Shown here: positions 2,976-42,810 of the stretch, one piece after another | How the letters are laid out: each line of letters begins with the position of its first letter | How positions within the stretch are numbered: position 1 is the first letter of the stretch | NCBI RefSeq assembly: GCF_965363235.1 | Contig: NC_134844.1 | Coordinates: 89,118,664 to 89,182,663, forward strand | Source of the DNA: Mytilus galloprovincialis | Lineage: Eukaryota > Mollusca > Bivalvia > Mytilida > Mytilidae | Reading direction: 5' to 3' | Length of the DNA stretch: 64,000 bases | Made by a program: the position numbers and the translations under genes | Notes under the pieces: generated by a model | Told to the model about the DNA's origin: nothing | Database searches by the model: none | Seen by the model: the letters and a program-made list of their open reading frames with translations, nothing else

Positions 2976-2976
2976 C

Positions 2977-21200: not shown

Positions 21201-24200
21201 AAGGAAAAGTTTGATATTAGCAAATTCCACTGTCATGGTTATAGATTAAAAAATGGTGTGACACAAAAAAAGAAAAAACAAGACTGGTTTAATTACCCTC
21301 ATTGTGTTATTCTTGTTTCTATTTGTTTTTAGTTTAAGAATAAAATAAAATAACAACAAATCTCTTTTTTTATAGAATGAAATGTATGTGAAAAACAAGC
21401 AGAAAGTGGAATACAGCAGTCCTGGTTACCTTGCAGAATTTAACAAATTTGTAGAAAATGAATCAGTAAAAGAAAGTGAGACAACTGAAATTACAGTAAG
21501 TTTAAAACTAAAACACATTGATATTGTTACATTATATTCAAGATAATATATGACTTATTTACTCTATCATCCGTTGTTAGTGATTTATATACTGCCTGCG
21601 TCAGTGTCTTCATCGGTGGAGTCGCAAAAACTTTTGTCACACTTTTCTCATCAACATAACATTGGGCACAATCTTTATATATGGCTTAAAGCTTTAACAT
21701 TGTGTTATAGTGTGTGTATTTATTTCATTGCCTTTCAACTTCCTGTTGAAACTTGTCACTTCTTGGCAACATATGTTTTCCATGGAAATATAAAAAAAGA
21801 AAGATGTGGTATGATTGCCAATGAGACAATTATCCACAAAAGACCAAAATGACACAGACATTAACAACTATAGGTAGCCATACGGCCTTCAACAATGAGC
21901 AAAGCCCATAACGCATAGTCAACTATAAAAGGCCTCGATAAGACAATTTAAAACAATTCAAACGATAAAACTAAATTTTTATGAAAAAAAAGGAACGAGA
22001 AACAAATAAATGTAACACATAAACAAACGACAACCACTGAATTACAGGCTCCTGACTTGGGACAGGCACATACATAAATAATGTGGCGGGGTTAAACATG
22101 TTAGCTGGATCCCAACCTTCCCCTAGTACAACATACAACATAAGAACGAACTATAAAAGTCAGTTGAAAAAGGCTTAAATCATCAGATGGAAACTCACAT
22201 CTAATGTTATTTTTAATCCTCCTTGCACTTTTGCGGGGACATAGAAATACTGGATGTCCAGTTTTGTAAGTGCTCCCAAAGGAGGAATTCCTGTGAGGTT
22301 TTTTGTATATAACTTATACTAGTACTAAAGGTTAATATCAGCAATATCTCCGACAAGTTCTAAAATGAACTTTTTTTTAAAAAGAGTTGCCTGCTTGGAA
22401 ATATTAATATTATGGAAAATTACCTCGTTAACACTCTCATAGGTATAAATTCATTAAATGTGTATATTGGCTATACCTCGATCAAATTTTAAGTTCAGCA
22501 CTAAATGTTATAATAAATAATAAATATTTATAATCAGTGCAAGATTTTTTATTAAATTTGATATAAACATATTCTTTGTAGGAATTTTCCCAGACAGATT
22601 TTACAGATGATGAATCTCAGGATAGTGTTTGGCGGCTTGACAGCCAAGAGTCTGTGCCTGAAAATGACTTAAAAAGAAAAGCCCTGGATTATTTTTTGAC
22701 TGTTTGTGGTCTAGATCCAGTCAGCCAGCTACAGTGTAATTGGGAGGAAGCGTCTGAGCGCACTAGAAGAAATCACACAAATACAGCAACTTCAATCTTT
22801 CAAGAAGTTTTGAATGTTATTGCTCCTGGACAAGTGTCTTCTTTATCAAATGCTGTGCTACGAAGATTGTCTTCAACACAATCAGATGACAATAATATGC
22901 TTGAAGTTTTATCTGCTGCATATAACCAAGCCACAGATTGGGGAACACAAAGACAGATTTTATCTCTGTTTGGGGGAAATTACTCCTTGAAAGCAATTAA
23001 GGAATTTATTCCTGACTTGTCAAAATACAAGTACACCACAGCCAGAAAACATTCTTCAATGATTGGTACTGGACAACCTGTTAGTAAAACATCATATAGT
23101 CGAGAGGGTTTGACAGATGAGCAGATAAGCCATTTCATGGACTTCATTATGAGTCCATCCATAATGACAGATGCACCATATGGAGAGACACATCTCAAGA
23201 TTTCATCAGGGGAAGTGTTTCATGTGCCAAAAATAATATTGAACAGTGTAAGAACCCGTGTTATTGAACAATATGAATCCTATTGTAAAGACACACATTT
23301 TGATGCCACAGCAAGTTCAAGATCCTATTTGAGAATAATGGAGGCAGTTGAACCAAACATTAGAAAGTGCATGAAGGGGTTGGACAACTATGCTGCTGAT
23401 GGAGCCAAAGCATTTGAAGATCTAAAAAAAGTTGCAGAATTACTTGGAAAACTGGGGAAGGGAGCACTATGGCAAGAGTCTATCCAGAAATCCTTAACCT
23501 TGGGGAAGCAGTACCTCAAAATAGAATACAAGGTAATTAACTTATTATTTGTAAGAAATGTCATGTTGTGTACAGTCCCTGTAACGTAAAAGTTAACACT
23601 TTTTTCGTTCGGGAATCGTACGTACAGCGTTCGGTAATCGTTCGTATAGAGATCGGTCATCGTCCGTACATCGTTCGTATAGCGTCCGTACAACAATCGG
23701 TCAGCGTTCGTTCATCGTTCGTTCATCGTATGGTAAATGTCACCGTTGAGAGTTTTGTATAACGTATGCTTCATGGTATCGTTAATCGTTTTATTGGTCG
23801 TATGGTTTATGGTATCGTTTAGCGTTTAGCGTTTCGTTTATCGTATGGTATGTAATATCGTTTAGCGTTTCATCAATCGTATGGTATATCGTTTTGTTAA
23901 GCGTCTGATATACAAGTATGTTAGGGTTTTATTTCAGAAAGTTATTTCAATAAATATAGTTTTGAGTTAAAATGATTTAATATAAAAAGATGCGAGATAA
24001 AAAAAAACAATTATTAGTTTGGATTGGATTAAATCTCTAACTAATATCATTATGGAATATATATAAAACGAAAGGGAAACGTTTCCTCCCATCACATTTT
24101 GACATGAACAACAAGAGACCAAATACCGCGATATAAGTCTATATGTCTCTCTCTCTCCTCCGCCAAATATTTCTCTGATCCAAATACTTCCTTGACACAA

Positions 24201-27200
24201 TAAATTATATATAATGTTATATAAATGAGGCTTTATATGAAGTAAACGTTTTATATCTAAATGTAAATGTATTAGAAAAAAAGACAACACATCCATGTTA
24301 TTTGTTCTCCTCAATGTCAGAGTCTGATATATACCGAAAACTGCCAGGGATATATAAAAATTCGTTGAGGATATCTATGGAACCAGCGTCGCTTGTGATT
24401 CCTGCTGTCGGTGTTAAAACTGGTTTTTTTTAACTGTTAAAAGTGCTTAAGTCCATGTATGAGTAAAATACAGAATTAAAAAATAACTCTACCTTTTTCA
24501 TATTTCTTTATCATAGAGGTAAGCTTCTGGCCAAGTTTCACTTATTCTGTCGCAAATCATTTACCTTAAATAACCAATCAATTGTATTCTAAAAGAAGTT
24601 GAATTGTTCTTTGTACGGATACATGAAATATTTGTCACTGGGCGTTATGTTTGCAATCGATGATCAAATACAAATCTACAGTATTTACATGAAAGAGACT
24701 AAATTATATATTTTTGTATTATTATTTTACACATATTTGAAGGATCGAAATAATCAGTTCTACAAATGGATGTTATTTAAAGACTTGAAATTTTACAATT
24801 ATCACATGCATCTATGAAATTTTTTATCGACGCACCAAACTTTTCCCTTTCATCGTGCATAGCTCATTTTCCGATTCGCTTAAGGTTTCTAACGATCTTC
24901 TTACTTGTTCATTACATTCTAAAATTAAAATCCTACACAAATTGCAAAAACTTTTATTCTCCGGCTAGATTGCGTAAAAGATAAATACTGTTTCGTTTGT
25001 GTACACACAATGTTTTGAAGGTCGATATCCAGTTTCGATAAAAAAAAGAATTAATTTGCGCCACAACTTAATTACGCCAATTCTTTTTTTGCATCACTTT
25101 ATTGTAAAAACTGCAGCATTCATTTGCGCCAATAAAACAATCATTTAATTGCGCAAATACTATATACTTGTTTTCCAATGTTTGTTCTTAGTGCACCGAG
25201 GAGGTCCTTTCCGGTATTTAAAAGTACAAGAAGAAATACCGCAAAGCGCCTCCTTAGTGCATGCACTTAGAACAAAATAGTGCATTAAGGACCTGATGGA
25301 ATGATATAATTGACACAAAAAACATGGCATACAGAAGGAGACTTTCTTAAAGTACAAAATTTCAAATTTTAGTAATTTTAGTAATTATAAAGTTATTTAA
25401 CAGTTGAAGTCAGTATTCTAATGTTACATGAAGGTGTAAATAGGTTAATCGTTTCGAGGTTATTATAACACAATTAATAAAATAGAGAATGGAAATGGGG
25501 AATGTGTCAAATTACATTTATTGGCGCAATTCATATTATAAAAAAAAAGAAGAGACGAGCGAGATTCAAACCTTTACAATATGACAAATTACACTTAAAC
25601 GTTTTGACACACCAGTTAATTCTTCATCCGGGATATACACCTGACATTAATCTTCCTTCAGTAACTTTACAATACCCAGCCGTGTCATTTCCGTATATTG
25701 TACATGTAGATAACACGTGTGATACATGTATATACACCAGAAATACCCATTCAAATGATTTTTATTTTTAGAAGAACTCCATATCGGGTAACATTAAATA
25801 TACATAATGTGCGTATTGTTATGCGTTTACTTTACTACATTGGTTAGAGGTATAGGGGGAGGGTTGAGATCTCACAAACATGTTTAACCCCGCCGCATTT
25901 TTGCGCCTGTCCCAAGTCAGGAGCCTCTGGCCTTTGTTAGTCTTGTATTATTTTAATTTTAGTTTCTTGTGTACAATTTGGAAATTAGTATGGCGTTCAT
26001 TATCACTGGACTAGTATATATTTGTTTAGGGGCCAGCTGAAGGACGCCTCCGGGTGCGGGAATTTCTCGCTACATTGAAGACCTGTTGGTGACCCTCTGC
26101 TGTTGTTTTTTATTTGGGCGGGTTGTTGTCTCTTTGACACATTCCCCATTTCCATTCTCAATTTTATAAACATAAAATTACAATTGAAAAAAAATGGTAA
26201 TAATAAGTTCAAATGTTGTTTTATTAAATGCTACTAGGTACATATGTATATGTAAACTTATGTTATTACGTTATTTCATGTACCTTTTTTTTTGGCTTCA
26301 ATTACTTTTTTATCTTATTGACTTATTCGTAAATCGAAAAACGCACAAATCTGAATAGAATCATATGGCATTGAATGATTTCTCTAACTCCAAACTAGTT
26401 ATACATGTACATGTAGATGCCTCTCAAATTTCATTTTTCTCGTTGGGTTGCTTGTCCATTAATTGACGTTTACGCTATATTCTTTTGTTCGGTAGTTGTA
26501 AAAAAACGCTCATCTATCAATTTCACAAGAAATATAATACTCGTAAGTCATGAGCATTGACATAAACATAAAATAAAATGAAACACTTTAAAACTGTTTA
26601 AATTATGCAGTGCATTTTGAAAATATAGTTTTGAAAAACCGGTTATTTTTGTTAAATACTTTTTCTGTCCCTTTTCTTAAAAATTAGGACACGTGTCACT
26701 GGTTAATATAGAACTAGTCAACCATAAATAATCCAAAACAACAAATTTGTGATTGGTTTGTCACACTTGCTTATATTATCAATATTATGTATTGTTTTCG
26801 GCTGAGACTACTACATCTGTCTGTGGTATCGCTCTGTCTGGGTTAATTATTTTAAGCATAACGTTTATAAATCGATCTCTGAAACAAATTATACATAAAA
26901 AAATTATATCATGAGAATTAAGTCAAAGTAAAGATTAAACTTATGCATGGCGGAAAAGAAATATATGAAAACGATAGTTCAATGTACATGCAGCCTTGCA
27001 AATGATATTTAAAAAAAATATATTTACTTTATAAAACTTAGGACTTTAATCTAAGTATTGTTGATGGGATGTTGAAGTTTTCAGAACGTGGAAAATACAC
27101 AAGAAAATCTATCAGTACACTATTCTATCAAAATGTGTTTGGTGTCCATTTAACAATATATTGTTTAAGAGTTTAGTGTTTTCTTATTCATTCTGACATC

Positions 27201-30200
27201 TGTGTCCATGGATCTAAACAAGAAATTGCGAAGACGTAATGGCATTATGCTTATCTGTTTACCTTTAATTTTAAAAATGATTTTTCAACAGAATATTATA
27301 TGTATAAAACTGTTTAATTTTTGTTTTTCTCTGCGAAAACAAAACGGCCCTAAAGCTAAATGTCATCGTCAGCATGTATAATGGAAGGCGATAAACACTT
27401 TAGAATATACACCACCTGCTGGATCTTTTTACCTGGGCAAATATCTTATTACGTAACAAGTATGAATGTAAAATTCTCGATATGGTATATTCAGGCGAAT
27501 ATACATGGTATCTCTGGACTGGGAAATTTAAGATATTTTGATCTCATAATGTAACATGTAAATTTATTTGTGCTTTATGTAAAAAAAAATGCATTTAGCC
27601 ATTTTATTTTCAAAACTTCTTTAAAATGAGTTGACTTTGAGTATATGTTTATTTTCAAAACCAGGGACAAATCACTGATTTCTCAATTTTAGACCAATCT
27701 CATTATTTTCAGCAGTGGGCAAAGTATTTGAAAAGAAATTGTATTTAAAAATGTATTTAATCACTTAATTAGTTATATTTCAAATATACAAAATGCGTTT
27801 CTGTTTCATATTTGCCTTTTGAGAATACTAATGCAGGAGTTCCACAAGGCTCTCTATTAGGTTCCCTACCATTCCTTATTCATGTATATGACATAGCTGG
27901 TAATTTGATAAGTCTAACTCGATTGTGTGCTGATGAAACATCCCTTTCTTATTCAAGAACTAGTCCTAACACAATAGCGAATGTCTTAAATAGCGATTTA
28001 GAACAAATTTTAGCATGGTCTAAGGATTGGTTTATTGATTTTAATCGGAACAAGACAATTACTATGCTATTCTCCTGTAATTCTTCTCCAAATGATATTA
28101 AAATAAGAACTTCAAAATCAAGTAGTAGAATTGGGGTCGGTAGAAATACCGCAAAGAACCTCCTTAGTGCACTAAGAACAAAAATGTGCATTAAGGACCT
28201 GATGGAATGATACAATTGTCACAAGGGACATGGCATCAAGAAATAGACTTTGTAAAAATTTCATAATTATATCTTTTTTTATTATGCGGGGTTCACACAT
28301 TGCCGATTATTACTCCCGTTTGAGATCAGACAGCGATACGACACGAAAAGTGAAAAAGTCGGATTAGTATCCTCAATTATCTGGAATGTCCTATTATTGT
28401 CTGAACGCAGTCGTTTAAGTTCGTAACAGATTCCTACTGGTCGGGAAGGGTCCGAATAGTTCGGCAAAGCACCCCGACAGTTAGGTGCGTCCCGTAACAT
28501 TCGGGGAAACTCAGCCGATTTTGTCTAGTCGTATTACAATCGTGCCTATGTCGTGACAGATTCTGCTGTATCGGATCGAATTCCTAACAATGTTCTGTGT
28601 ATTCGGGACGGTGTCCTGTGGAACGGGAATGATCTGGAGAAATTTGTTCGAACGGATAACTTCCGTCAGCGTCGGTTCACTGTCTTGTCACTATCTGATC
28701 TCTGTCGGATTACATTCGGTAGAATCGGGACGCAGTCGTGACAGACTCGGTCGAATTTTACCTGGCGAAAGATAAAAATCGGATTAGAAGCGGATTTAGA
28801 ACGGGATTATCGGGATAAATTCGCTTGGAAACGGTTGAATATCGGCGCTTCCTGAACAATATCTGATTGTTGTCGTGATTAAATTTTTAAAGTTTGAATT
28901 TACATCCACGATTCATAGGATCTTGATCAGACTTTTGATAAATTTTAATCGGGAATGGTCCTGTCAAGGACGGCAGTAAAAATCGTGAATGTGTGACCCC
29001 AGCTTGAGACAGTTATTTAAGGTTTTATCGACAAGTGCCTCAATCAGTTGATTGTCACCTGTGTAATCGGTAGAAGTTCATGTTCGCCCAACCTTGACCC
29101 GTTTATAATCCGCTTGTATACTGATTAAACATGTATATGGTATTTCAAATTATTCTGGTTTTTTTTTCCGTTTGTTTGTTCCTGCCGTGTTTATTCTGTA
29201 TTTCTGTCTGTTATATTTGTTTACTTCTAATGTAATGGCGTATTTTCAACTCATATATTTTTTTTATCCTTTTAATTTTAAAAAGACAAATAATTGTGAA
29301 CTCTTCACGGAAAGGTGAGGATGATATTTGGTTGCTTAAGGTCCAATGGCCAATATTTCATTCATTTTTCTGATGTCAACCAAACCTCTCAGCAAGGATT
29401 GTAAAAGGAGAGAATACTGGCAAATGCAGAAAGATTATTTTGACTATCTTTGCTGCTTTGGTCTCTATATGATGATTTATTATGTTTTAAGGGAGACTAA
29501 ACTCATGTTCTACAAAAACAAATATATTCAGTTTTAATGAGGTTTTAGTCTAATCTAATTTCTGATGTGATTTACTGAGAATGTATCATTTCTGTTGATA
29601 AGAGGCAGCACCAAAACATGTTTATCTTTAACATGTTGTCAGGTTAAATTCATATAGGGTTAAACATGTTTAAATTTAAACACTTTCCTTCACGTGTTTA
29701 GGAGAGGAACATATTAAGGATAATAACTTATTTACAAATACATTACAAGTAAAAATATGTATAGCTTGATGTTTAGGCCCTAAACACATTTTAAGAGTGT
29801 AAATATGACTTATTTATTTCCATCTACTTCATTTTAACTTTTATGGAAAACCATACCACATCTCCTTTCGCTTATTTTTGTTGTATATTCATATATTCAT
29901 ACACCACTTTCATTTATTTCCAAATCTTAAAATCATTTATTTCCACATATGTCCAGTTCTTTATCGTCTCATCAATTAATAATCATGGCAGAACGGGCTC
30001 TAGAGTCATATGATTAAGTTAACTAAATTATTAAGTTCTCCCACATTGTGCATTATATTTCTTACATCACTATGCTTATTACAGTATAAATGAAAATGGT
30101 ATTCATCTTCAATTGTTAAAATAAAGATGAAAATTTGTTTATTCAGTAATAAATTAATCGTTCAAAGAAGACACTTATGATTTATATTCTCTTTTTAAAA

Positions 30201-33200
30201 CATAAAATAGTATTTACCGCTTGCAGTTTTAAAATTTCTATAATACTTTTGTAATCGGGTTTTGGAGAACCCTACGGACGCCACATACTTTCATATGTCT
30301 TTCAAGGTATAATGAAAGTATGTTTAGGAAATGAAAGCTCAGAAGCATGTTTTTTTCTCAATTTGTATCTCAAAATTGGCCTCTTTAAAAAAAAAAAGAA
30401 GCTTACATATTCAGTTTCCTTAAAAACAAATTTTAACAAAGGCAAAGTAACACAAAATTCAATTTTTAATTTTTCTTTCATCAACTTGAAATTATACCAT
30501 GCTAAACCGTTAGGTGCATTCAACAACAACCATTAATTAATCAATTAGTAACGATCAAAAGACAGTTTTTTTTATTGGATAAGGTTGATTGAACATGATG
30601 ATTGGTGGGTGGCAAGACAATTGTTTATTGGATAAGGTTTATTGAACATGATGATTCCCGAGTGGCACGCGCCGATTAAAAAGCATTTTACTTCAAAATT
30701 ACAATATATTTTGATACCAAACTTTATAAATATGAGTTATATACTCATATCCTCTTATATCCATGTTCTTTGGGGTCTCAAAACATCGTTTTAATGTCCT
30801 TAGTGCAAAAGCTTTCTTCTTAGTGCACTAAGAAGTCCTTTGCGGTATTTCTACACACCGGTAGAATTGTCTCCTGTCATAAACATTTAAGTATTACTTT
30901 TGATTCCAATGGTAAATTCTATACAATATAGACAACGTTTTAAAGTGTGCAAGCACAAGATTAAATTTCTAAAATAATTGAAATATGTATTGACTAGGAA
31001 TTATCTTATTCGCATACAATTATAAGATCAATTGTGTAATATGCACGTGAGTTATGGAATGACTGTACTAAACAATCTGGCACATGTCGTTCAGTTATAA
31101 GCAGGAAGATTAGTAACTGGGTTGCCTGTCTTTGCTAGTCCGGAAGTTATATATATAATCAGTGGTACAGGCAGACATTTGCTAGTGGACAAAGAAAATC
31201 CAAAAAAGCTCAATATGTTCTATTCTTCACATAAAGTGGGACTGCCTCTTCAACTTTGTATTTATTTGGCTTTTTAACTATTTTGATCTGAGCGTCACTG
31301 ATGAGTCTTATGTAGACGAAACGCGCGTCGGCGTATACAATTATAATCCTGGTACTTTTGATAACTATCTACGATTTAATGCCATTTTTTTTCAGTTAAA
31401 GATAGAATATCAGAAAATCCTTTTTTTTCATATAATATCGAATGAAATAGCCTAAACCCTGACATATGTACGTCCAGAAATATGAATATATTTATCTAAC
31501 TTGACACAGACGGGCGCACTACGTTTGCGCACATGTTGGGATTAAAATGTTTTACGTTTGCGCGCAGCTTTTGATTACATTTGCGCGCATTCATTTTACA
31601 GGTAATCTCAGGTAAAAATATAAATAAAAATTATATTAAATTATAAATGACTATACTTTTTTTTGTATTTTCAAAACGGATATGATTATCAATTATTAAT
31701 TATTAATTTTGAAAATAGTTTGTAAGTTCAAGTTATGTATTATTCATATTGAATTCTAAAATCAGGCCTCCGTGTTGAAGGCCGTACATTGACCTATAAT
31801 GGTTTACTTTTTTAAATTGTTATTTGGATGAAGAGTTGTCTCATTGGCACTCACACCACATCTTCCTATATCTATAAACTCCGTTATAAATGGGTTATGT
31901 CACAGATTTTCTTAAATTTTGCATACACCTTTTACTTGTTGGAATATATATCTGAAAATCGAGAAAAAAACATGCGGCTTTATCTCTTTTTTTCCCTGAC
32001 TTTGGAGACTTAGACTAACGGAAGGGGTACTGATACTTGTAAATAATGAACAAATTGCACGTCAATCTTTATTATTAAGGACAGTTGATTGGATTAAAGT
32101 GATGGATTGCCACGCCTATATTAAAAAATGAGATCCTATGAACAATCTTCAGATAGCTCCCAGTATTCGAATTCGATAAAAAAAAATATTTATATCTTAT
32201 ATTGTTTCAATATTAAAAGTGTTGGGTAACGTAGTTGAATTTTAGATTAAATTTGGGAAGTCGTGTTTACATGTATCCCCATTTGTTAGGTTATTCAACA
32301 TGATGAATAAAAAATTATCAGCTGGTTTTAAGAGTTGCAAATATTAACAAATTAAATTTATGATACAGAATTATTTTTTTTATTTGTGTTCCTCAACAGT
32401 GTTTGCTAAATTTGTTTTCCTCGAATCCCGAAAAGTGAAGAGTTTTTCATACGTGTAAATCCAGAATTCACACAAACGACGTTCATGAATGGTCTGTTCA
32501 AGAGTTTAGTTTCACTTTTCAAAATATTTCAGACACGTAAACAATATAGGTTATTAGTGCTAGCTTTACAAAGAAAATATCCACTGACATGCATAATATT
32601 GAATGCCATGGGTCACGCATGGACTGTCTTATTTTATAGGGATGCCCATGTGGCACATCAAAGTTAAGATTGATTTAACCATTGTACTTTAGAATTGCAA
32701 CAAATCTTAAATTCACTTGAATACATTAACCTGTTATCTTGTCGACTTTACAGCTAATTTCCTAATGCTTGTAGAGTAAAACTTTGGTAGGCTTGCTTGC
32801 TCTGTTTGTATAAACATGAATTAAAGCTTTGTAAATAACATTGACATCTTCAAACAATGTAGAGGCATTTTTTAATCTGTATATATTATATTTAAATTTG
32901 ATTTGAAATTATCCAAATTACAATTGTAAATGATACAAACTAAGCAATCAAGTTAACCAAAGTCTCGCTTTACATGCATTAGGAAATCAGCTGTAAAGCC
33001 AACATAAAGATAGCCGCTATATCCTGAGAAGAGACCACGATGAAATTTGAAAGTTAAACAAATCTTAGTTTTCACGGGAACGAATATTTTGTTAAAACGT
33101 TGTAGTGATCAGATCATCAATGACGTAATTTAAAAAATAAGACAAGGTCGGAAATAGTTCTAGAGGTCTAATAGCAAGAAAGTCTCCTCACTCAGCTTGC

Positions 33201-36200
33201 GGTTATGTGTTGGTGGTGGATAGAGTCACACCGACTTACAATTGACTATTTCTCTGCAGTTACAATTAAAGATCGTTGTCGAAATCAACACTAGGGAGAT
33301 ACCATTAAATTTTTACAGGGTAGGGGTGGGGGAGTTGTGGCCAGGATGAAAAATGTTGTCCTGCATTTTTCTTTCAATGTAATCTCAATGTAAATGTAGT
33401 TCTGGTTTTTTTTTTTTTTTTTTTTATTTTACACTCTATTCTGTCCTGCCTTTCTTAGTTATCAATATATCCTGTTCATCATGACTTTTCTTTTTGGCAA
33501 GATGGCCATACTGCCTTTTTTCTCTTAACTCCTGTCATGCCTTTTTTTCTTTTCAATTTTTATACGTCAGACAAACTTCTTCGTGCATGTGACTTCATAT
33601 ATATATATATTTCAAAAGGGATAAGAAATGTCTTAATTGATAAGTTCTAAATTGCATTTAAAACATCCATTGAAAGAACATTGTATAATTAGAAACCATT
33701 GTCCGCTGTTGGAAGTTCAGTTTCGCCATTTTTCGTGCTTGTCATAAGACGAAATTTCCGGGGTTTCGATTGTTAAACTCGTTAAATCAAATAACGAACA
33801 TATTCCATCTCAACCTGAGAAAGAGAGGCTCATTTACATTAATTTCATCAATGATTATCGTTTTTGAGCTGTTGTACTTTCAATGCTATTTATAAACGCC
33901 GAGTAAAATTTTAAATGTTTGGTATACAAATTTTTAATTATTCATCTTTAAAAATGTTCAGAGGACAATGGGACATATCGAAGAATCTTTGAGTTCTGAC
34001 GAAAATTATTATAATAGTGTTTTTCTATCTTTCCACAAAGTATATAAAAGTACCAAGCGTTTTTCTCAACTTTGACAACCTTAATATTCTGAATTTTCCA
34101 ACGGCAATTTTCAAAGTGCTTAGACAATTCCAGTGCACCGTTACGATTCAAATATGATGTAATGGTATAGAAAAACCTTGCAGTTTTGTAACTGTTGACA
34201 AAGACATGCTACATTTTAGAAAAATGGCTGTTAAGATTTTACCTATATCTGCCGTTGCCATATTGGGATAGTCGTAATTCCAGTTACGGTTATCAGTTTA
34301 ATACCAGTGCAGTTGAGAAATATGGTGCAGTTATTCAAATGCAGATGTAAACCTTATCAATATTAAACCCAATCCCGCAAGCAGCTGTGGTCATTCTGTT
34401 GAGGATAGTATTCACTATTTGTAAGTGCCCTTTTATCAACGAAGCACGAGAAATATTGTTTTCAAAATTAGAAAGATCTACTATATCCATTTTGCTTTTA
34501 TTGGCTGGTGACGGTGACTTTTCATTTCAGCAAAATAAAGACATTTTTGAGTCTGTACAATCGTATATTATTAATTCGTATATTTTAACAAATTTGATTC
34601 GTTTAGGGATAGTCACATGTTAAACTATATTTTCGAAGGTAGAGAGAAAACGGCGGATAGCAAAAAGCATATTGCACAGAGCATATTGCACGGTTATTTT
34701 TAGAATATCTAAAAACCGATTTACTTTGTGACGTCATGTAATGAATTTCATGATATCGTTAAACGTTTTGAAACAAATGATATCTGTGATCGATTATTTG
34801 ACGAAAAAAGTCTTCAAATACCTAAGATGTCAAACAAACAAACAAAATAATTAAATAACAACTAATATGTTGTTATTGTCAAGGAGACAACATGATGTAT
34901 AAAATTCAAACAAAATCAAATGGCGATTTTGATACAAATATACATCATGAGCTGAAATTAATAATATAACAAATATAGCCTTTGTATGAGGTCAATACAG
35001 GATATATCGACCCAAAGAAGTATATCGACCTCGGACTTCGTCCTCAGTCAATATACTTCTTTCAGGTCAATATATCCTTGTATCGACCTCATACAAAGGC
35101 TATATTTGTATAATATCAGAAATACACTAAGATTTAGAACATTCAATTAAAATTCGGAATTCCTACTTCCCAACTCTTCCAATCTAATTAAAAACCGATC
35201 TCTCATCGCTCCTGTTTCTGATATGTCGCGTGGGAGATCTAACGAAACCCGCTTTGAGGTCACATGTGAGTGACCTCGTAGGTGTTTCTTTTTCGACCAA
35301 TGAAATTGAGTCTTCCACGATCTTGGAAGTTTAACGTAAGGCAAAGGGATGTAACTCATTTTATTTACGACGAAATAGTCAGTCAAAATAATTCATAAAC
35401 TTTTTTGATTGGCTTATTAATAGGTCGTCAAGTCATTTGCATATCTTTATAAATTCATAACTTTTAGTTCACTCACATGTGACCTCAAAGCCGTTTTCGT
35501 TAGATCTCCCACGCGACATATCAGAAACAGGAGCGATGAGAGATCGGTTTTTAATTAGATTGCAAATCTTCACTCTAGTTCAGTTTTATATATTACTCTC
35601 ATACGTTTTGTTTTTGAAACAAGGCTATATTTTGTCCAAAGACAAGCACAATAACTTCAAAGCGAATTGCGAGAAGTGGTTTCGTATTTCGTTTTAGTTA
35701 AAGAAAAAAAAATACTAATAGTTTATGTAAAATAACGACTCGTACGGTGTCGCGTTTATTATATCTTTTTAATGCATTGGTGCTATTAGATGCAAACAAT
35801 AATGACCATAAAATGTCAGGTTTGCGAGATCAGACAGTAACCTAACAACTAAACAATTGAAAACCTAGATATCAATGTTAACATTCGCCAGCAATGAGCA
35901 ATTTTCATATATAAAACATGATTGAGGTGAATACTTTGCGAGTAAAGAAAAAGACACTACCATAGATTTGTTATTAACCCCAGATGCTTGATGGGTTCAA
36001 ATCAGTATTCAGGAATTACCACTTTTCATTACATCACATTACAACGGAAATTAGAAAATACAGCCTCGAAGTATTTCTCAGACATTGTTATGTTCCTGTT
36101 GGCTTTATAAATATTTCGATTTGAGCGTCACTGATGAGCCTTATGTAGACGAAACGCGCGTCTGGCGTACTAAATTATAATCCTGGTACCTTTTGATAAC

Positions 36201-39200
36201 TACTATGTAGCTTTCTTTCTGGCAAACACGGTTTTATAAATGCTCACAGGCACCGACCATTGAAAAACAATCGATCTGGTTAAAATAAGAAATGAAAATA
36301 ATTGTTTTTTTTTTATGGCAAATAAGAAAAATGACCGTTTGATTTAAAATTGTTTAAAATTATTTAGAATAGATTGAAATAGATGGAAATAACGTATTCT
36401 AATGTGAAAAGGCTAGACTTTATTTTTTGCCGTAGGGATGTGACTGAGTGGTTTTGTTTACAATTATTTCCCATTATTTCCCTAGTGCAAATCTGCAATA
36501 ATTTTTGTATCATCAAGTTGTTTGATTTTCACATTATAACAAAACTGAGAATATAACGGATGAATTTATAGTTAGCTGTTTAATGTCCAGTGGCAACTAT
36601 TACATGTATCATTAGGAGGACATTTACAATGTTAATATTATAAAATTAGATGTGTGTCTCATTATAATACGTTATTCTGATTGGCTACACTGCAATATTG
36701 CCTTATTCCTTAATCAATTTCATTACACAATAAAATCTACCATTCATGATGACACGAGGTCCCACAATATAGTGCAGAGGTAAATAAAAACTTGGTAGAA
36801 ATCGTGTTTTCATGATCCTAGCTAAACAATGTATTTATAAGTATTGAATGCTTCTTTTTGTAACTTCATAGGGTTGTAAAAGCGTTTACCGTGCGCAATT
36901 TTTAGAATGAAGCGCTTCCGCGCTTCATACAAAATGTACTTCAGTCAACGCTTTTACACCCCAATGAAGTTACAAAGAGAAGCATTCAATAAATAAATAT
37001 AAACAAGGACATCCTGTGTTAAGCAAACATGTGTATCACGGCACAAGAGATCACCTATAGACCGTGTATATCATATGTATATTTAGGGTGGGTTGCTCCG
37101 AATAAAGTAGATATAGATACAGGAAAATAAAGAAAAAAAATAAAAATTTAGAATAGTGTATAACGGGCAAAATAAAGATCAGAGGAAAATGGTATAAGAA
37201 AATTAAAGAATAGAGGGAGTGAGTGGTCTAGTTTTTTGCCGGACAAATGTTGATGATTATTTAAAGTCAAGTGCATTTATAGGATAAATAATACACAATC
37301 GTTTGTACATTGGTAGGGATTTATGTTTAGAGTTGATGAGGCACATATGAGAAATTGTTTTTATTTGAAATTTTTCGAATAATAGTTTTTTTCCTCGTCT
37401 GATTTTAAAATGAATAAAAAATATCTTTAATCTAAAAACATATGGTTTAATTACGACATATAGATAAAACTGCTATTCAATCGATTTTAAAATACATGCT
37501 ATAAAAGAGAATACATAAAAATACTTAACAAATTTAAACAAAAAGTCAACCTTAAGACCCCGAATATACTTTTGTAAGAACATCAGATTAATTCCGAATT
37601 CCATCTAAAATACATTGTTCATTTAAAGAAAAAAAAATGGTGATTCCTTAGGCTATTTAAAAAAAAATGACTGAATTCTCTGCAGACTGTAGTTTACTCG
37701 CACATTCATCAAGTACGTATTTCTACGGCTAAAACAAATCATAATTGTATCTTTTAATTTGTTTAAATTTATTTCAGTGTTTATTTTTCAAACTTTTTAT
37801 GTAAATAATGTTGGATCAAGATCGAGTCAGATTAAATTATTATCTATTAAATTATTTATTAAAAACTAAAACATGTATCCAATCTAAATTTTACACATAT
37901 TATCACTTATATCAAAAGATTAAACAGAACACAATTTTTGTTTTATATTTAAAAAAAAAACATGTACGCTAAACTATGCACGCCAAGAAACGATGTACGC
38001 TTAAACGATACGATATACGCTAAACGAAACGATGTACGCTAAACGATACGGTATACGCTAAATGAAACGATGTACGCAAAATCATAGGATGTACGACAGA
38101 AGGGCGCTTATGTTATCGTTTATGGTATGGTTTATGGTACATGGTTTCGTTCGTACATCATTCGTTCAGCGTCCGTACAACGTTCGGTCAGCGTTTCGTT
38201 TGCATTCGTACATCGTTCGGGAAGCGTACGTACATCGTTCGGGCATCGTCCGTACATGGTTCGGGCATCGTTCGTATTGTTAACTTTTACGTTACACGGA
38301 CTGTATCAATGTAAAAACAAAATGAGAATATTATGCACATCTAAATTTTCCATTAATAAAAATGAATTTCTGAATTCCATAGAAAAAAAATTCTCCAATA
38401 TTTGAGGACATTGTAGACCAGCAACTGTTAAACACAACTGTGCTAACAATTAATACCGAGTAGCTACACATTCAAGAAACTCTTTCTTAACTTCCAGACT
38501 TTCCTCTCAGTTGCAACAAAAATGAAGATAATTATAACATGAACTTTTTTATTCTTTTCAGTTGCATATTTCCAAAGAATCTGAAACTGCAGACCATTGT
38601 TGTAACTTTGCCTTATCAGATCAATCAAAAGAATATACTGCTTCTTGTCAACATGAGCACAACCAAGTGTGTAAGAAATGTGATGACTTAACAGAAACCC
38701 TGGTAAAAATAGAGAAATCATCAGATGAAGTATTATATGAGTCAGCTGATCAAGAAGATGACACCATATACATGGTTGAACAGGTAAAAAATCCCATTGT
38801 ATATTTGCTGATATCTTCCAATTACCCATAAAGCCCCTTACCGTTGAAGCTGAAGTAGACTTAGGGATTTCATCCTGTCTGTCTGATAAATCAGTTTTCC
38901 ACATTTTTAGCTCACCTGGCCTGAAGGGCCAAGTGAGCTTTTCTCATCACTTGGCGTATGTCGTCCGTCTGCGTTAACTTTTACAAAAATCTTCTCTGAA
39001 ACTACTGAGCCAAATAAAACCAAACTTGGCCACAATCATCATTGGGGTATTTATTTTAAAAAATTGTGTCCGGTGACCCGGCCATCGAACCCCGGCCATC
39101 GAACCCCAGCAATCGAACCAAGATGGCCGCCATGGCTAAAAATAGAACATAGGGGTAAAACGCAGTTTTTGGTTTATAACTCAAAAACCAAAGCATTTAG

Positions 39201-42200
39201 AGCAAATCTGACATAGTTTAATTGATTATCAGTTCAAGATCTATCTGCTCTGAAATTTTCAGATGAATTGGACAACTGGTTGTTAGGTTGTTGCCCCTGA
39301 ATTGGTAATTTTAAGGAAATTTTGCTGTTTTTGGTTATTATCTTGAATATTATTATAGATAGAGATACACTGTAAACTGCAAAAATGTTCAGCAAAGTAA
39401 GATTCACAAATAAGTCAACAGGACCAAAATGGTCAGATGATCCCTTTAGGAGTTATTTCCCTTTATAGTCAACTTTTAACCATTTTTCGTAAATCTTAGT
39501 TATCTTTTACAAAAATCTTCTCCTCTAAAACTACGGGGCCAAATTAAACTTTACTTGGCCACAATCCTCATTGGGGTATTTAGATTAAAATTTGTCCAGT
39601 GACCCGGCCAACCGACCGCCATGGCTGCCATGGCTAAAAATAGAACATAGGGGTAAAATGCAGTTTTTGGCTTATAACTCAAAAACCGAAGCTTTAAGAG
39701 CAAATCTGATAGGGGTTGATATTGTTTATCAGGTCAAGATCTATCTGCTGTAACATTTTCAGATGAAGTGGACAACTGGTTGTTAGGTTGCTGTCCCTGA
39801 ATTGGTAATTTTAAGGAAATTTTGCTGGTTTTTGTTATTATCTTGAATATTATTATAGATAGAGTTAAACTGTAAACAGCAATAATTTACAGCAAAGTAA
39901 GATCTAAAAATAAGTCAACATGACCAAAATTGTCGATTGACCCCCTAAGGAGTTATTGCCCTTTATAGTCAATTTTTAACAATTTTCATAAAATTTGTAA
40001 ATTTTTACTAACATTTTCCACTGAATCCAATCATTATAGATAGAGATAATTGTACACAGCAAGAATGTTCAGTAAAGTAAGATCTACAAAAACATCACAA
40101 TCACTATAAACACAATTTTGTCATGAATCCATCTGTGTCCTTTGTTGAATATTCACATAGACCAAGGTGAGCGACACAGGCTCTTTAGAGCCTCTAGTTT
40201 TATGTCATTCTTGAATATATTGATTTTATAGTTGGTGTATAGTTTAACCATGACAAATTACAGATAAAGTTCCAATTCTGTTGTGGTCTGATGATTTTTG
40301 CAAAGTTATGGTTCTTGAACTAAAAAACGTAATCAGTCTTTGACACTTTTTTTCATGATGTTTAAAGATTTTGATTTTATATTTGGTATATAATATAGTT
40401 TAAATATGACAACTGATACATCAAGTTCCAATTTTGTTTTGGTAGAATAAATTGTCAATCCTTAGGAACTATTTATTGCCATGTTATAGTCTTAGAATGG
40501 TGGATACTATTCATGCTGGTTTGTGTCCACACTTGTTCATTAATAATATTTGGCAGAGTATTCATCTGTATATGTATATCTATACTGCATATATCATAAT
40601 GAAAAAAAAATATGAATGAGGGTAAATGTTTATTACACAAAAGTCCATCTTAATAAAATTGAGAATGGAAATGGGGAATGTGTCAAAGAGACAACAACCC
40701 GACCATAGAAAAAAACAATAGCAGAAGGTCACCAACAGGTCTTCAATGTAGCAAGAAATCTTAATACCAGGATAAGATAAAACTGGTATGAAATGATGCT
40801 GCGATATCATTGTTTATCTTCATCTAAAAGTCAAATTCCAAAAAAAAGAACTGAGTAACTGTATTAAATGAAAACATACTGTATTACACGTCAAGTAAAG
40901 GGAAATACTGAATTCACATAGTGCAAGAGATCAAACAAATTAGGTTATCTATCATCAACATTTTTTTGTGTAATACATATACCTTAATATCCCCATGAAA
41001 CACAGTGAATTACAAAATGATACATTCATTACAAAAAGAAAGAAAGTAATAATGTCAATCACTAGAAATATAAATGAATCTAATTTCAAATTAGCTACAA
41101 GCAAGCATTTTTCTTACACCTATGTGAGAACCATCAAATAGTGTTCTTATTTTACAATAAAAGAGCATTATAAATAATAAACTCCTTTTGAAATTACAGC
41201 TCTAAACCCAACTTTAACTTATATAAATAAATGCACCATTTCACATATTTACTACCGGTAATATTCATGTACCTGTATAATATTTTATATTTCAGAGTAT
41301 AAAGGCCGTCCAAGAGTGGAAGAAACACCTCCTGAGATCCTATAACCAGGACACAGCAAGAAGCAAAATTCTGCATAAATTATCAAAAGATGAAGTTTTG
41401 GTAGAGAGAGACTGGGCTATGAAATTCCTGCCCATGCGCTATAGAGAGTCTCAGTCTAAATGGTTTGGCAAAAGAGGGTTAAATTGGCATGTTAGTGTAG
41501 GATCATATCATACTTCTGATACGGATGACCTAAAAATGCAAACTATTATCCATGTCTTTGATAATGCTTCCCAAGATGCAAGAACATCAAATGCTGTACT
41601 AAGAAACACTCTCCAACAATTTCAACAAATGAATCCTTCCCTCAAAAAGGCTTACATAAGGTCAGACAATGCTGGATGTTTCCATGGTTTTTTGGCAGTC
41701 AGTGAAATAGCACTTATCAACGAAGAAGAAAACATTAAAGTTGTGCAAATGGATTTTGCTGATCCTCAGGGAGGAAAATCTATCTGTGACAGGAGGGCTG
41801 CACACATAAAATCAGCAATTAGAAAATATGTGAATGAAGGACATGATGTGTGCACTGCAGCTGATTTTAAGAAAGCACTTCAGGTATGCAGTTTAAGAAA
41901 TGTAGCTGTGGTTGTTGCACTTCCTCCAGAGAGCTGTAACAAGAAAGAGATCAAATCTCAAATTAATAATATTACAACCCTAAACAACTTTGCCTACCAA
42001 CAAACAGGTATAAGGGTGTTCAGACAGTATGGCGTAGGGGAAGGAAAGTTTCTTACCAATTCATCACTAAAGCTGCAGTTGTTGAGTTGCAGTAATATTA
42101 CTGTCGTAGAAGCTTTTGCTGGCCACCTTAGTTCAATTCCATCCAGAACAGCCAGGCAAGGTGTTATAGTTCAAGAATGCAGAAATGAAGCATCAAATAT

Positions 42201-42810
42201 TGCAGTAGATCAATCAGATGTTGATATTGAGGAAGAGATTGATGATATTGGGAGCAACCTGTTTACCTGTTCAGAACCAAATTGTCTATCAACGTTTAGC
42301 AAGTATGGTAATTTGGTCAGACATTTGGATGTTGGTTCTCATAGAATAAAACCAATGGTTTCATCTTTAATTGATAAGTCTAAGATACAATATGCTAGTA
42401 AAATTGAACAGAAATTGGTTGTTTTACCTAGCTGTTGCCACGAAACTACAGAACGTGAAAATTCCTGCAAATTGTGTGAAGGATGGGGTCTAAAACAAAG
42501 ACGAACTGTAAAAAAATTCACGACCACACAAATTTCTTTCTTGAAGGAAAAATTTTCAAAGGGAGAAAGAACTGGACACAAGTGTGACCCAGAAGAGGTT
42601 TCCCTAGAAATGAGAAGTGCTAAAAGCAGTCTTGGAAAAAGATTTTTTTCCAAAGATGAATTTTTATCAGCTACTCAGATTGCTTCATATTTTAGTAGAC
42701 TTGTTTTCGAGAAAAGAAAAACAGCATGCAATTCTTATGATGAAGAAGATATGGAAGCTGGAATAGCTGCAGAGACATTGGAAGAGTTACAAGTGTTGGC
42801 CAGGAACTAA
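17847..42810 (+). CDS. Multi-exon DDE-transposase-like / C2H2 zinc-finger protein (5' incomplete)
   Basis: Seven exons (17847-18263, 18764-18852, 20228-20359, 21376-21495, 22582-23532, 38562-38783, 41296-42810) have GT-AG borders and compatible phases and join into one open frame of about 1,147 residues ending in TAA. Numbering starts at the first full codon here. Order: Cys/His-rich N-terminus (C75, C78, H81, then C95 and C100; CTFC at 141-144), acidic linker (169-260), a long helical-looking region (260-569), a second Cys/His motif (570-643), an RNase H/DDE-like region with D682 (RDWAMKF), D767 (RSDNAGCFH) and D808 (ICDRRAAHIK), a C2H2 finger (C968, C973, H986, H992) and a homeodomain-like tail (1050-1112). 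I recognise this as a large uncharacterised family expanded in molluscs and cnidarians; a DNA-binding, transposase-derived role is inference. The first exon enters in mid-codon, so an upstream exon with the start codon is missing. No close poly(A) signal was found. Confidence 0.82.
18764..18852 (+). CDS. Coding exon 2 (CxxC segment)
   Basis: Acceptor TTGCTTACAG, donor AAT|GTAAGA. Encodes 29 residues beginning GVCTFCRK after the split glycine, then a charged stretch. The GSGVCTxC pattern is a familiar junction in this family. The intron before it is 500 bases and carries a poly-C run at about 18480-18494. Confidence 0.78.
18880..19810 (+). repeat. Family B copy with a family A copy nested inside (intron 2)
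   Basis: Left part of B at 18880-18971, a family A copy at 18972-19355, then B resumes at about 19360 (CCCATACTGCATAGTCAGC) and runs to a GTACAGATCTGAGAGTACTC tail. The nesting gives an order of insertion: B, then A. It fills most of intron 2. Confidence 0.7.
20228..20359 (+). CDS. Coding exon 3 (acidic linker, duplicated with exon 4)
   Basis: Acceptor TTTTTTTTCCAG, donor ACA|GTAAGT; phase 0 at both ends. Encodes 44 acidic residues starting NETCIE and ending ESERYEIT. Exon 4 starts NEMYVK and ends ESETTEIT, so the two look like tandem duplicates. Confidence 0.75.
21376..21495 (+). CDS. Coding exon 4 (acidic linker, duplicate of exon 3)
   Basis: Acceptor TTTTTTTATAG, donor ACA|GTAAGT; phase 0 at both ends, 40 residues. 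Both exons can be skipped or duplicated without changing frame, so alternative splicing of this linker is possible. Confidence 0.75.
21785..22195 (+). repeat. Family B copy (intron 4)
   Basis: AGATGTGGTATGATTGCC to AGTTGAAAAAGGCTTAAATC, with ACTGAATTACAGGCTCC and GTGGCGGGGTTAAACATG inside. Same strand as the host gene. Confidence 0.8.
22582..23532 (+). CDS. Coding exon 5 (large conserved central region)
   Basis: Acceptor TTCTTTGTAG, donor AAG|GTAATT; 317 codons, phase 0. After an acidic start it holds a helical-looking conserved block, including ATDWGTQRQILSLF, an SGEVFHVPKII stretch and GAKAFEDL, all of which I associate with this family. It ends 40 bases before the left edge of the 14.7-kb insertion in intron 5. 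Confidence 0.85.
25186..25380. repeat. Outward-facing pair of ends of the Mutator-like family
   Basis: 25186-25224 matches the right end (TTAGTGCAC..TCCTTTCCGGTATTT) and 25234-25380 matches the left end plus about 110 interior bases of the 28134 element (AAATACCGCAAAG, then GTGCATTAAGGACCTGATGG). They are separated by about 10 bases, so the right end abuts a left end. The rest of either copy is absent. Confidence 0.55.
25830..26168 (-). repeat. Family A copy, reverse
   Basis: Reads in reverse from AGAGGTATAGGGGGAGGG through GCGCCTGTCCCAAGTCAGG to TCCCCATTTCCATTCTCAAT. One of the longest copies here. A fragment (GAATGGAAATGGGGAATGTG) lies forward at about 25485. Confidence 0.8.
26169..27659. 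other. Interior of the 14.7-kb element, no recognised gene
   Basis: AT-rich. The short frame at 27360 shows no motifs. Confidence 0.4.
28134..30860. mobile_element. Mutator-like non-autonomous TIR element, 2.7 kb
   Basis: GTAGAATTG is present directly before (28125-28133) and after (30861-30869) as a 9-base target duplication. Inverted ends share GTAGAAATACCGCAAAG and then a CTTAGTGCACTAAGAA stretch. A 9-base duplication with long ends starting in G fits Mutator-like elements. No transposase was seen inside. The 28286-29003 element is nested within it. Confidence 0.75.
28286..29003. mobile_element. 0.7-kb TIR element, GC-richer, nested
   Basis: Left end GCGGGGTTCACACATTGCCG and right end, reverse-complemented, GCTGGGGTCACACATTCACG; both continue GATTWTTACTSCCG. 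The interior is richer in TCGG/CCGA words than its surroundings and has only short, unconvincing frames. No clear target duplication could be defined. Confidence 0.65.
31292..31334 (+). ncRNA. Hammerhead ribozyme motif, copy 1
   Basis: The catalytic core is complete: CTGATGA (31298-31304), stem II GTC/GAC (31305-31307 with 31315-31317) closing a 7-base loop, GAAA (31318-31321), a minimal stem III with loop GCGC, and cleavage triplet GTC (31327-31329). Stem I pairs GCGTC with GGCG; copy 1 lacks one T found in copy 2 after the cleavage site, which weakens stem I. The very short stem III is typical of metazoan retroelement hammerheads that act as dimers. Downstream tail AATTATAATCCTGGTACTTT and TTGATAAC is shared with copy 2. 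Confidence 0.75.
31765..31870 (-). repeat. Family B fragment, reverse
   Basis: GTTGAAGGCCGTACATTGACC followed by GTTGTCTCATTGGCACTC and CACACCACATCTTC is the reversed start of family B with an internal deletion. Confidence 0.6.
32747..32997. mobile_element. 251-base MITE, copy 1
   Basis: Ends share TTTACAGCTAATTTCCTAAT and then GC.TGTAGAG and ACTTTGGT, over about 65 bases, in inverse. The copy at 57191-57447 has the same arms. Confidence 0.72.
33000..34312. other. No recognised gene
   Basis: Inside the 14.7-kb element. A poly-T run (about 33408-33427) and a TA run near 33600 are present. Confidence 0.4.
34313..34620 (+). pseudogene. C-terminal fragment of a non-LTR retrotransposon
   Basis: One frame reads INIKPNPASSCGHSVEDSIH and YL, then after a frameshift KCPFINEAREILF and later NKDIFESVQSYI. 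The pattern C-G-H...E...H-Y-L-x-C-P...A-R...I-F-x-S-V is what I know from the region after the RT domain in mollusc non-LTR elements. No RT domain adjoins it, so it is a solo fragment inside the 14.7-kb element. Confidence 0.55.
34968..35109. mobile_element. 142-base fold-back element
   Basis: ACAAATATAGCCTTTGTATG at left is matched in inverse at right. Arms of about 65 bases, full of TATATCGACC words, are separated by a few bases (CTTCGTCC). ATAATAT occurs on both sides as a possible 7-base duplication, though in AT-rich sequence. Confidence 0.7.
35180..35562. mobile_element. 383-base fold-back element with 97-base arms
   Basis: Arms 35180-35276 and 35466-35562 are almost perfect inverse copies (AATCTAATTAAAAACCGATC, CCACGCGACATATC in the right arm, GAGGTCACATGTGAG). 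The high arm identity suggests a recent insertion. The short frames in both arms are by-products of the repeat. Confidence 0.78.
36125..36168 (+). ncRNA. Hammerhead ribozyme motif, copy 2
   Basis: CTGATGA (36131-36137), stem II GCC/GAC with one C-A mismatch (36138-36140 with 36148-36150), GAAA (36151-36154), minimal stem III, cleavage triplet GTC (36160-36162). Stem I is intact: GCGTCA pairs with TGGCGT, including two wobble pairs. It keeps the same upstream TTGGCTTT and downstream CCTGGTACC..TTTTGATAACTA flanks as copy 1, so both derive from one retroelement tail. Confidence 0.72.
36842..36991. mobile_element. 150-base fold-back element
   Basis: TATTGAATGCTTCT at left matches AGAAGCATTCAATA at right, with inner GTAACTTCAT and GTAAAAGCGTT pairing. 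The centre is GAAGCGCTTCCGCGCTTC. It resembles the 34968 element in design: long arms around a tiny CTTC-containing loop. Confidence 0.7.
36992..37960. other. No recognised gene
   Basis: AT-rich interior next to the right arm of the 14.7-kb element. Confidence 0.4.
38562..38783 (+). CDS. Coding exon 6 (second Cys/His motif)
   Basis: Acceptor TTATTCTTTTCAG, donor CAG|GTAAAA; 74 codons, phase 0. Contains ADHCCNFALSD and CQHEHNQVCKKCDDL, a Cys/His cluster typical of this family. It lies 258 bases after the right edge of the insertion; without the insertion intron 5 would be about 300 bases. Confidence 0.8.
38906..40205 (-). repeat. 500-base repeat, reverse, about 2.5 units (intron 6)
   Basis: Begins with the palindrome AGCTCACCTGGCC..GGGCCAAGTGAGCT, then GACGGACGACAT-type sequence and units with CCCCAATGATGAT and GCCATGGCGGCCATCTTGG in inverse. 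More diverged than the 820-2975 array, so older. Confidence 0.8.
40655..40760 (+). repeat. Family A fragment (intron 6)
   Basis: AAAATTGAGAATGGAAATGG to TCTTCAATGTAGCAAG; truncated on the right. Confidence 0.75.
41296..42810 (+). CDS. Coding exon 7, terminal (DDE-like domain, C2H2 finger, HTH-like tail)
   Basis: Acceptor TTATATTTCAG, then 504 codons and TAA. Motifs in order: RDWAMKFLP (candidate first catalytic Asp), RSDNAGCFH (second), DPQGGKSICDRRAAHIK (third candidate), a C-x4-C-x12-H-x5-H zinc finger, a short CxxC (SCKLCEGWG), and a basic helical end with FSKGERTG and ATQIASYFSRL. The length, composition and lack of any stop make this the most secure coding segment in the window. Confidence 0.92.
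   Translation, partial: SIKAVQEWKKHLLRSYNQDTARSKILHKLSKDEVLVERDWAMKFLPMRYRESQSKWFGKRGLNWHVSVGSYHTSDTDDLKMQTIIHVFDNASQDARTSNAVLRNTLQQFQQMNPSLKKAYIRSDNAGCFHGFLAVSEIALINEEENIKVVQMDFADPQGGKSICDRRAAHIKSAIRKYVNEGHDVCTAADFKKALQVCSLRNVAVVVALPPESCNKKEIKSQINNITTLNNFAYQQTGIRVFRQYGVGEGKFLTNSSLKLQLLSCSNITVVEAFAGHLSSIPSRTARQGVIVQECRNEASNIAVDQSDVDIEEEIDDIGSNLFTCSEPNCLSTFSKYGNLVRHLDVGSHRIKPMVSSLIDKSKIQYASKIEQKLVVLPSCCHETTERENSCKLCEGWGLKQRRTVKKFTTTQISFLKEKFSKGERTGHKCDPEEVSLEMRSAKSSLGKRFFSKDEFLSATQIASYFSRLVFEKRKTACNSYDEEDMEAGIAAETLEELQVLARN

Follow-up and report, generated by a model that had tools for sequence, protein, structure and literature searches.

A 14.7-kb TA-flanked element in a mussel intron as a probable member of a family of giant non-autonomous DNA transposons

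Introduction

How did an intron of 15 kb in a gene of the mussel Mytilus galloprovincialis come to consist almost wholly of one inverted-repeat unit, and what could have moved a unit of that size? The intron lies in a stretch of 64,000 nucleotides from contig NC_134844.1, hereafter the window (G000:C7:89118664-89182663), and the genome searched comprises 1.385 Gb in 331 contigs. An earlier note, drawn from the window's letters alone, had read this unit as a single element with terminal inverted repeats (TIRs), flanked by TA and devoid of a transposase, which would hence have to move in trans. Our analysis supports that reading wherever it could be tested. We consider it highly probable that the unit belongs to a family of giant cut-and-paste DNA transposons, non-autonomous and typically 9-17 kb long, that is mobilised in trans by a TA-specific transposase.

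Insertion of the window element as one unit

The element occupies positions 23573-38303 of the window (+ strand; 14,731 bp). Its TIRs of 26 bp, matching at 25 of 26 positions, lie at 23573-23598 (+), with C at base 7 as the left-end type, and at 38278-38303 (-), with G at base 7 as the right-end type, and a TA stands directly outside each of them (23571-23572 and 38304-38305). The surrounding intron (23533-38561; 15,029 bp) has phase-0 GT/AG splice sites, its two flanking exons having been checked; the element makes up 98.0% of it, and with the element and one TA removed 296 bp would be left. The one-mismatch TIRs with their TA flanks, the 98% share and the residual intron of about 300 bases are thus as the earlier note had given them.

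Together with the TA, the two ends form a 28-base inverted match with one mismatch, while 100 dinucleotide shuffles, with extension in both directions and hairpins excluded, gave at most 24; a cruder control (one-way extension, hairpins kept, 40 shuffles) reached 26, a figure that is not comparable with the 28. The window is repeat-rich, holding 185 inverted matches of at least 24 when near-identical start points are counted once, so that length alone does not single out the TIR pair. The pair stands out because it recurs: the genome-wide search for the ends that the earlier note had proposed returned 108 places for the TA-plus-TIR 28-mer with one free base (53 + 55), and the control returned none.

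Direct evidence for insertion comes from the host gene's own paralogs. When the joined window flanks were searched genome-wide, two uninterrupted places were found at 98% identity (L051 and L052), both of them paralogs of the host gene, each with the sequence GTTGTG-TA-TCAATG at the point where TA, element and TA stand in the window. Two paralogs with a single TA imply that the 14,731 bp entered as one unit, with duplication of a TA target site; the earlier note had suggested looking for an empty site in other individuals or species, and two occur here within one genome. Genome-wide recurrence, the shuffles and these empty sites rule out a chance inverted repeat.

A family of long elements across the genome

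Without the TA, the bare 26-mer, counted with a pattern whose last base was deliberately mismatched, was found at 109 places against 108 with it, the extra place being an exact 26-mer at C7:73836617. Ends with at most two mismatches numbered 131 genome-wide (control 0). Searches with the arms gave 141 candidates for the left arm, the best 40 of which scored 92-100% identity, and 147 for the right arm, the best 40 at 97-100%.

Pairing was examined in the first 100 of the 108 exact ends, and up to eight exact ends may therefore be absent from it. All 33 convergent neighbouring pairs, taken regardless of end type, combined one end bearing C with another bearing G (31 pairs) or A (2 pairs); two ends of a kind never occurred together. 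The single mismatch between the TIRs of the window element is accordingly not decay, since left and right end types differ regularly across pairs. Exact ends and the best-40 arm lists together furnished 61 left and 58 right known ends, and for 39 of the 61 left ends a right end in matching orientation lay within 45 kb. These 39 spans, which pair left with right by construction and so do not test end-type pairing, range from 3.75 to 32.7 kb with a median of 12,751 bp; 35 of them measure 9.3-17.4 kb, and one alone, that of 3.75 kb, falls below 9 kb. Twenty-two spans were read, i.e., the window element and 21 fetched copies, the remaining 17 being known by their ends. In every one of the 22 elements exactly two TIR copies were found, with no inner copy at up to five mismatches.

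The fetched copies repeat the insertion pattern of the window. A TA lies outside both ends in all 21, no other shared sequence was seen by eye in their 20 flanking bases, and the target context of the 22 sites displays no strong preference beyond TA. For five of the 21, the joined flanks matched uninterrupted relatives across the junction. Three of these are clear single-TA empty sites: C13_42.96, at 93% against window 1775-1935; C9_42.7, at 89%, where the relative is a repeat within the copy's own flank; and C6_59.5, at 76%, with gaps away from the junction. The match for C13_2.02 spans 41 bases only, and that for C5_45.7 falls within a tandem array and leaves the junction unclear. A repeat attributed to the flank of C13_69.7 has no counterpart in the window. 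Segmental duplication or an assembly artefact, instead of transposition, might be entertained given that the host locus itself has 99% paralogs; the exact TA junctions in 21 copies reject it and the empty sites refute it, leaving this explanation a negligible probability.

Relatedness among the copies points the same way. Alignments of the 21 fetched copies to the window element extend over 3.6-12.1 kb, and the copies have much of their interior in common. The window's group has eleven members (94.1-96.5% identity to the window), and the others form one group of six (94.5-96.4% mutual identity) and another of three (96.7-98.5%), with two copies standing alone. Within the group of three, the copies on C13 and C1 are 98.5% identical over their full 9.4 kb, from which it follows that units of that size moved whole.

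CpG-rich terminal arms

Each TIR is followed on its inner side by an outer array, some twelve units of 11 bp in which CGTTCG and CGTACG are frequent, at 23606-23730 on the left (+; CGTTCGG and CGTACGTACAT types) and at 38145-38276 on the right (+; units as on the left and in the same orientation). CpG spacing in these arrays peaks at 11, 22, 33 and 44. They are followed inward by an array of TATCGTTTAGCG type on the left (23741-23909, +) and by its inverted counterpart on the right (37963-38096, -). The earlier description of the arms as CpG-rich was accurate: in the window element the two ends of 348 bp have observed-to-expected CpG ratios of 2.67 and 2.45, against 0.99 for the interior and 0.72 for the whole window, and over the 22 elements the ends range from 2.4 to 2.9 and the interiors from 0.83 to 1.08.

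In all 22 copies the outer arrays are direct, not inverted, with local scores of 53-59 in direct against 7-9 in inverted orientation (shuffles at most 16); in the window element the outer arms are 71% alike over 127 nt. Such directly repeated arms, together with the ends that have no known partner, are what a composite, sandwich-like structure could leave, in which two short end elements move the DNA between them. That would call for an inner TIR on each arm, and with exactly two TIR copies in each of 22 elements there is none; convergent exact ends are moreover always of differing types and the interior is largely common to the 21 copies, so that we hold a composite origin to be highly improbable.

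Coding capacity

No transposase frame had been noticed inside the element, and none was found among the 11 frames of at least 80 amino acids (aa) that lie wholly inside the window copy. Likewise, of 25 frames listed for a clean copy of 9.36 kb, 20 were scanned and yielded no transposase domain; three of the five omitted lie in the arms. Nine of the 11 inner window frames are covered by at least one other copy (insertions ignored). Three of the nine are open in no covering copy (0/17, 0/1 and 0/13), and the other six are open in 6/19, 4/8, 5/8, 3/8, 5/14 and 3/4 copies. Overall, the window frames are for the most part interrupted elsewhere in the family.

Among stop-to-stop frames of at least 90 aa in 40 stretches and the window element, several clusters are shared; the largest, with 19 frames of at most 498 aa, is reverse-transcriptase-like. 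Two or three of the clusters lie in the arms, and all remaining ones measure 90-180 aa, with one of 92-138 aa present in 10 loci. Substitutions show no codon periodicity (the most skewed windows, uncorrected, had P 0.04 of 194, 0.035 of 121 and 0.012 of 155), and 122 of 663 insertions have a length that is a multiple of three. Sub-threshold Pfam matches in element frames (DUF4014, DUF716, YncO, Ion_trans_N and Ceramidse_alk_C) were set aside. A viral origin was rejected, with no viral domain in the scanned frames and no exact TIR match in viral contigs. No RNA gene was found at Rfam thresholds, and no tRNA.

Search for the transposase

Scoring the best 150 of 179 candidates for pogo-type DDE_1 gave 143 matches, and no known end lies within 40 kb of any that was checked. 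For mariner-type Transposase_1 (18 of 18 candidates scored) there was a single match, which by eye is not near an end, and Tc1-type DDE_3 gave 150 matches with the best 150 of 764 candidates scored. The distance checks left aside the window locus, its two 99% paralogs, second stretches of loci and one DDE_1 match on C68. Other TIR families that share the first 15 bases (with TA) and then depart from G, the one type of divergence covered, were sought with TACAGTCCNTGTAACH, which gave 8 matches against 9 for the control. Among what was scored and read there was no autonomous relative; the autonomous partner is missing, diverged, or among the unscored candidates and unread copies.

One DDE_3 fragment does lie inside a span, that of 29.6 kb. 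Found at C12:6834677-6834868 in the element's orientation, it covers profile positions 82-145 in a frame of 106 aa, and the family might on this account be autonomous after all, with its transposase in the rare 24-33 kb copies or in missed short exons. HTH_Tnp_Tc3_2 (PF01498), however, has no match in that span by eye among the best 150 of 844 candidates scored, and frames of equal length matching DDE_3 profile positions 86-145 occur away from known ends (C12:61844084, C8:67958993 and C5:5998712), as a nested Tc1 would give. As the compared elements also carry no coding signal, we judge an autonomous family to be improbable.

Relation to known transposons

The family's chemistry is most likely Tc1/mariner-like. 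Like Tc1/mariner elements (IS630-Tc1-mariner, including pogo), it has a TA target with TA duplication and a short TIR, and a CAGT end is itself a Tc1/mariner-like trait. Unlike them, it is mostly 9-17 kb long, carries direct 11-bp arrays inside its TIRs, and displays no DD[D/E] transposase in the scanned frames of two elements and no long shared frame in 22, a difference from which non-autonomous members are exempt. According to passages of one account, Tc1/mariner elements generally measure 1300-2400 bp and encode a 340-aa transposase (PMC6875036). Membership in Tc1/mariner is not claimed here: there is no transposase to link the family with it, and the family's length is far outside the usual range.

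Other groups share some traits with the family. Non-autonomous TIR elements, including miniature inverted-repeat transposable elements (MITEs), likewise lack a transposase, share their ends and are moved in trans. MITEs, according to one report, are short (PMC12550479), whereas the mussel family has a long shared interior and a single span below 9 kb. Passages of a further report describe KolobokP as especially rich in bivalves and as having directly repeated terminal regions, i.e., long terminal direct repeats, each with short TIRs of its own, and duplications of 3-5 bp (PMC9587614). As far as that description goes, the direct outer arrays of the mussel elements resemble KolobokP, while their inverted ends, lack of an inner TIR and TA duplication do not. 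The TTAA duplication of piggyBac and Kolobok is not seen here either, the duplication being TA. PIF/Harbinger elements leave a 3-bp TWA duplication; the GTG-TA-TCA empty site leaves only TA duplicated, and this group was also rejected. CACTA/EnSpm elements, with termini CACT(A/G), are large and carry subterminal repeat arrays, as do the mussel elements, which nevertheless end in CAGTCC and, in every copy read, are flanked by TA at either end. Large retrotransposon derivatives (LARDs) are long, conserved, non-coding and moved in trans; they are, however, retroelements with long terminal repeats, and the mussel family consists of cut-and-paste TIR elements. The literature search yielded nothing matching the family, and the TIR strings returned only unrelated rice herbicide-resistance work, which is not proof of absence. 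The earlier note's statement that the element matches no family it could name stands, the family being set apart by published or commonly known descriptions rather than by repeat-library consensus sequences.

This leaves room for a TA-targeting superfamily without a name so far, distinct from Tc1/mariner, whose transposase would read the 11-bp subterminal arrays. Such a superfamily would accord with (i) outer arrays whose CpGs are strictly spaced at 11 bp and which are direct in all 22 copies, (ii) the lack, at 8 matches against a control of 9, of any other TIR family sharing the first 15 bases, (iii) the lack, among scored candidates, of DDE_1, DDE_3 or Transposase_1 near a known end except for the one fragment, and (iv) lengths far above 1.3-2.4 kb. 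Yet the TA duplication, short TIR and CAGT end all fit Tc1/mariner and no positive evidence speaks for another enzyme; we therefore regard a new superfamily as a possibility worth keeping in mind, though a rather unlikely one.

A probable non-autonomous family moved in trans

For the preferred reading, i.e., a giant non-autonomous family mobilised in trans, we propose the following course of events. A transposase made elsewhere would bind the 26-bp inverted repeats, and the CpG-rich 11-bp subterminal arrays would probably help as extra binding sites. The enzyme would then excise the whole unit and paste it at a TA, as Tc1/mariner transposases do. Upon insertion at the window locus, the host intron would have lengthened from some 0.3 kb to 15 kb. 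As for the autonomous source, it may be rare or lost, or may bear ends too different to recognise.

Several observations weigh against this reading. Altogether 41 known ends (22 of 61 left, 19 of 58 right) have no known partner within 45 kb, and their partners may be mutated or outside the top-40 lists. These ends bear on what the earlier note had named as refuting a single unit, namely ends occurring independently as short solo repeats or alleles with separate insertions: end types that always differ in 33 pairs and the lack of an inner TIR in 22 elements speak for one unit, while the partnerless ends still allow solo ends. The 21 fetched copies were chosen because both their ends were known, and the three largest spans (23.7 kb at C12:22175923-22199646, 29.6 kb at C12:6809600-6839163 and 32.7 kb at C10:10451155-10483872) are among the 17 known by their ends. 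Certain frames are open in several copies, namely window 23967-24374 (6/19), window 34351-34623 (3/4) and a 67-aa frame of another copy (13/18) that has a sub-threshold Pfam match only, and there is the DDE_3 fragment within the 29.6-kb span. Nor are the arms sharply more conserved than the rest: between subfamilies the ends reach 94.2, 94.9 and 95.1% against 93.0 +/- 1.7% for the interior, where 13 of 45 bins attain the conservation of the outermost left bin and 4 that of the right arm. In the window's own subfamily, 97.3 and 97.7% for the left arm do not stand out against 97.2 +/- 0.8%, and the right arm reaches 98.4%. Arm conservation would thus be compatible with, and weakly suggestive of, a binding role. 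Finally, neither a transposase nor an autonomous copy turned up in the frames and copies read, so that the enzyme class is inferred from the TA and the CAGT end only.

A natural family whose units usually measure 9-17 kb, which has many copies with both ends and which yielded no enzyme gene, suggests that very long TA-specific transposition happened repeatedly in an animal genome. By comparison, passages of a study of Sleeping Beauty, a Tc1-type transposon, report that activity falls with element length, with a 7.8-fold drop in HeLa cells from 3.2 to 18 kb of cargo and a lesser one in another cell type (PMC4229213). A bolder proposal, which we offer tentatively and hold to be unlikely, is that the same-orientation 11-bp CpG arrays serve as a transposase-loading platform that lifts the size limit of TA transposons and lets coding-free units of 9-17 kb spread in trans. 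The family provides concrete ends, i.e., the TIR and the 11-bp arrays, for testing what permits the transposition of long units. It also illustrates that a single insertion can lengthen an intron fiftyfold with the splice sites untouched.

Interior of the element and unusual copies

The interior of the window copy has a segment limited to its subfamily (29007-31092; present in 9 of 10 subfamily copies and in 0 of 11 others) and four extra segments, at least two of which are repeats or inverted-repeat insertions. The extra segments comprise a secondary insertion at 25808-26136, a repeat seen elsewhere in the window and absent from nearly all 21 copies; 28285-29006, for which no match was found in any of the 21 copies at the alignment thresholds used; 31250-32051, matched in few or none of them and holding a short repeat (31266-31367) that recurs at 36099-36202; and an inverted-repeat, MITE-like insertion at 35190-35559, matched in 0 of 21. 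A reverse-transcriptase-like remnant at 27773-28210 (+), also present in other copies, falls below the Pfam cut-off (RVT_1, E 8.7e-4, 19.5 bits against the curated 29.6) and is probably an old nested insertion.

A further interior array, whose frames read as repeated YAYG/TVR motifs, was seen at L029:4534-4875 and L044:5913-6222. At C6:56238200-56283865, left and right family ends in matching orientation are 45.7 kb apart, just above the 45-kb pairing limit, and may represent a very large or rearranged copy. The left end of a family member at L002:1-1690 lies 115 bp from oppositely oriented inner family sequence (1805-3190), an arrangement which suggests that one copy was inserted in or beside another.

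Host gene and surroundings

The exon upstream of the element lies at 22582-23532 (+), its start being the limit of the frame and not a mapped splice site, and the downstream exon at 38562-38783 (+), its end read from the GT site. Further downstream, a host-gene frame of 509 aa (41281-42810, +) resembles, in its motifs, a DDE-type transposase gene, though it has no Pfam match. Its phmmer search against PDB gave two matches at E 0.3-0.4 to ribosomal protein S17, which were set aside, and the predicted fold of the DDE-like exon was uninformative, with a predicted local distance difference test score (pLDDT) of 34.9. The frame has 87 matches genome-wide among 84 scored of 647 candidates, and two 99% copies of it adjoin the empty sites; the interrupted gene is thus multicopy. 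It appears, then, that a mobile element inserted into an intron of a gene that is itself mobile-like, and that it did so in one of that gene's copies. As a possible mobiliser, the family to which the host gene belongs was rejected, since no checked match lies inside a span and one lies 6.3 kb outside an end (84 of 647 scored).

Elsewhere in the window, a satellite-like array at 50925-52556 repeats a 26-bp unit about 63 times. Tandem units of about 500 bp occupy 810-2888, with inverted relatives at 38961-40018, immediately past the host exon on the downstream side of the element.

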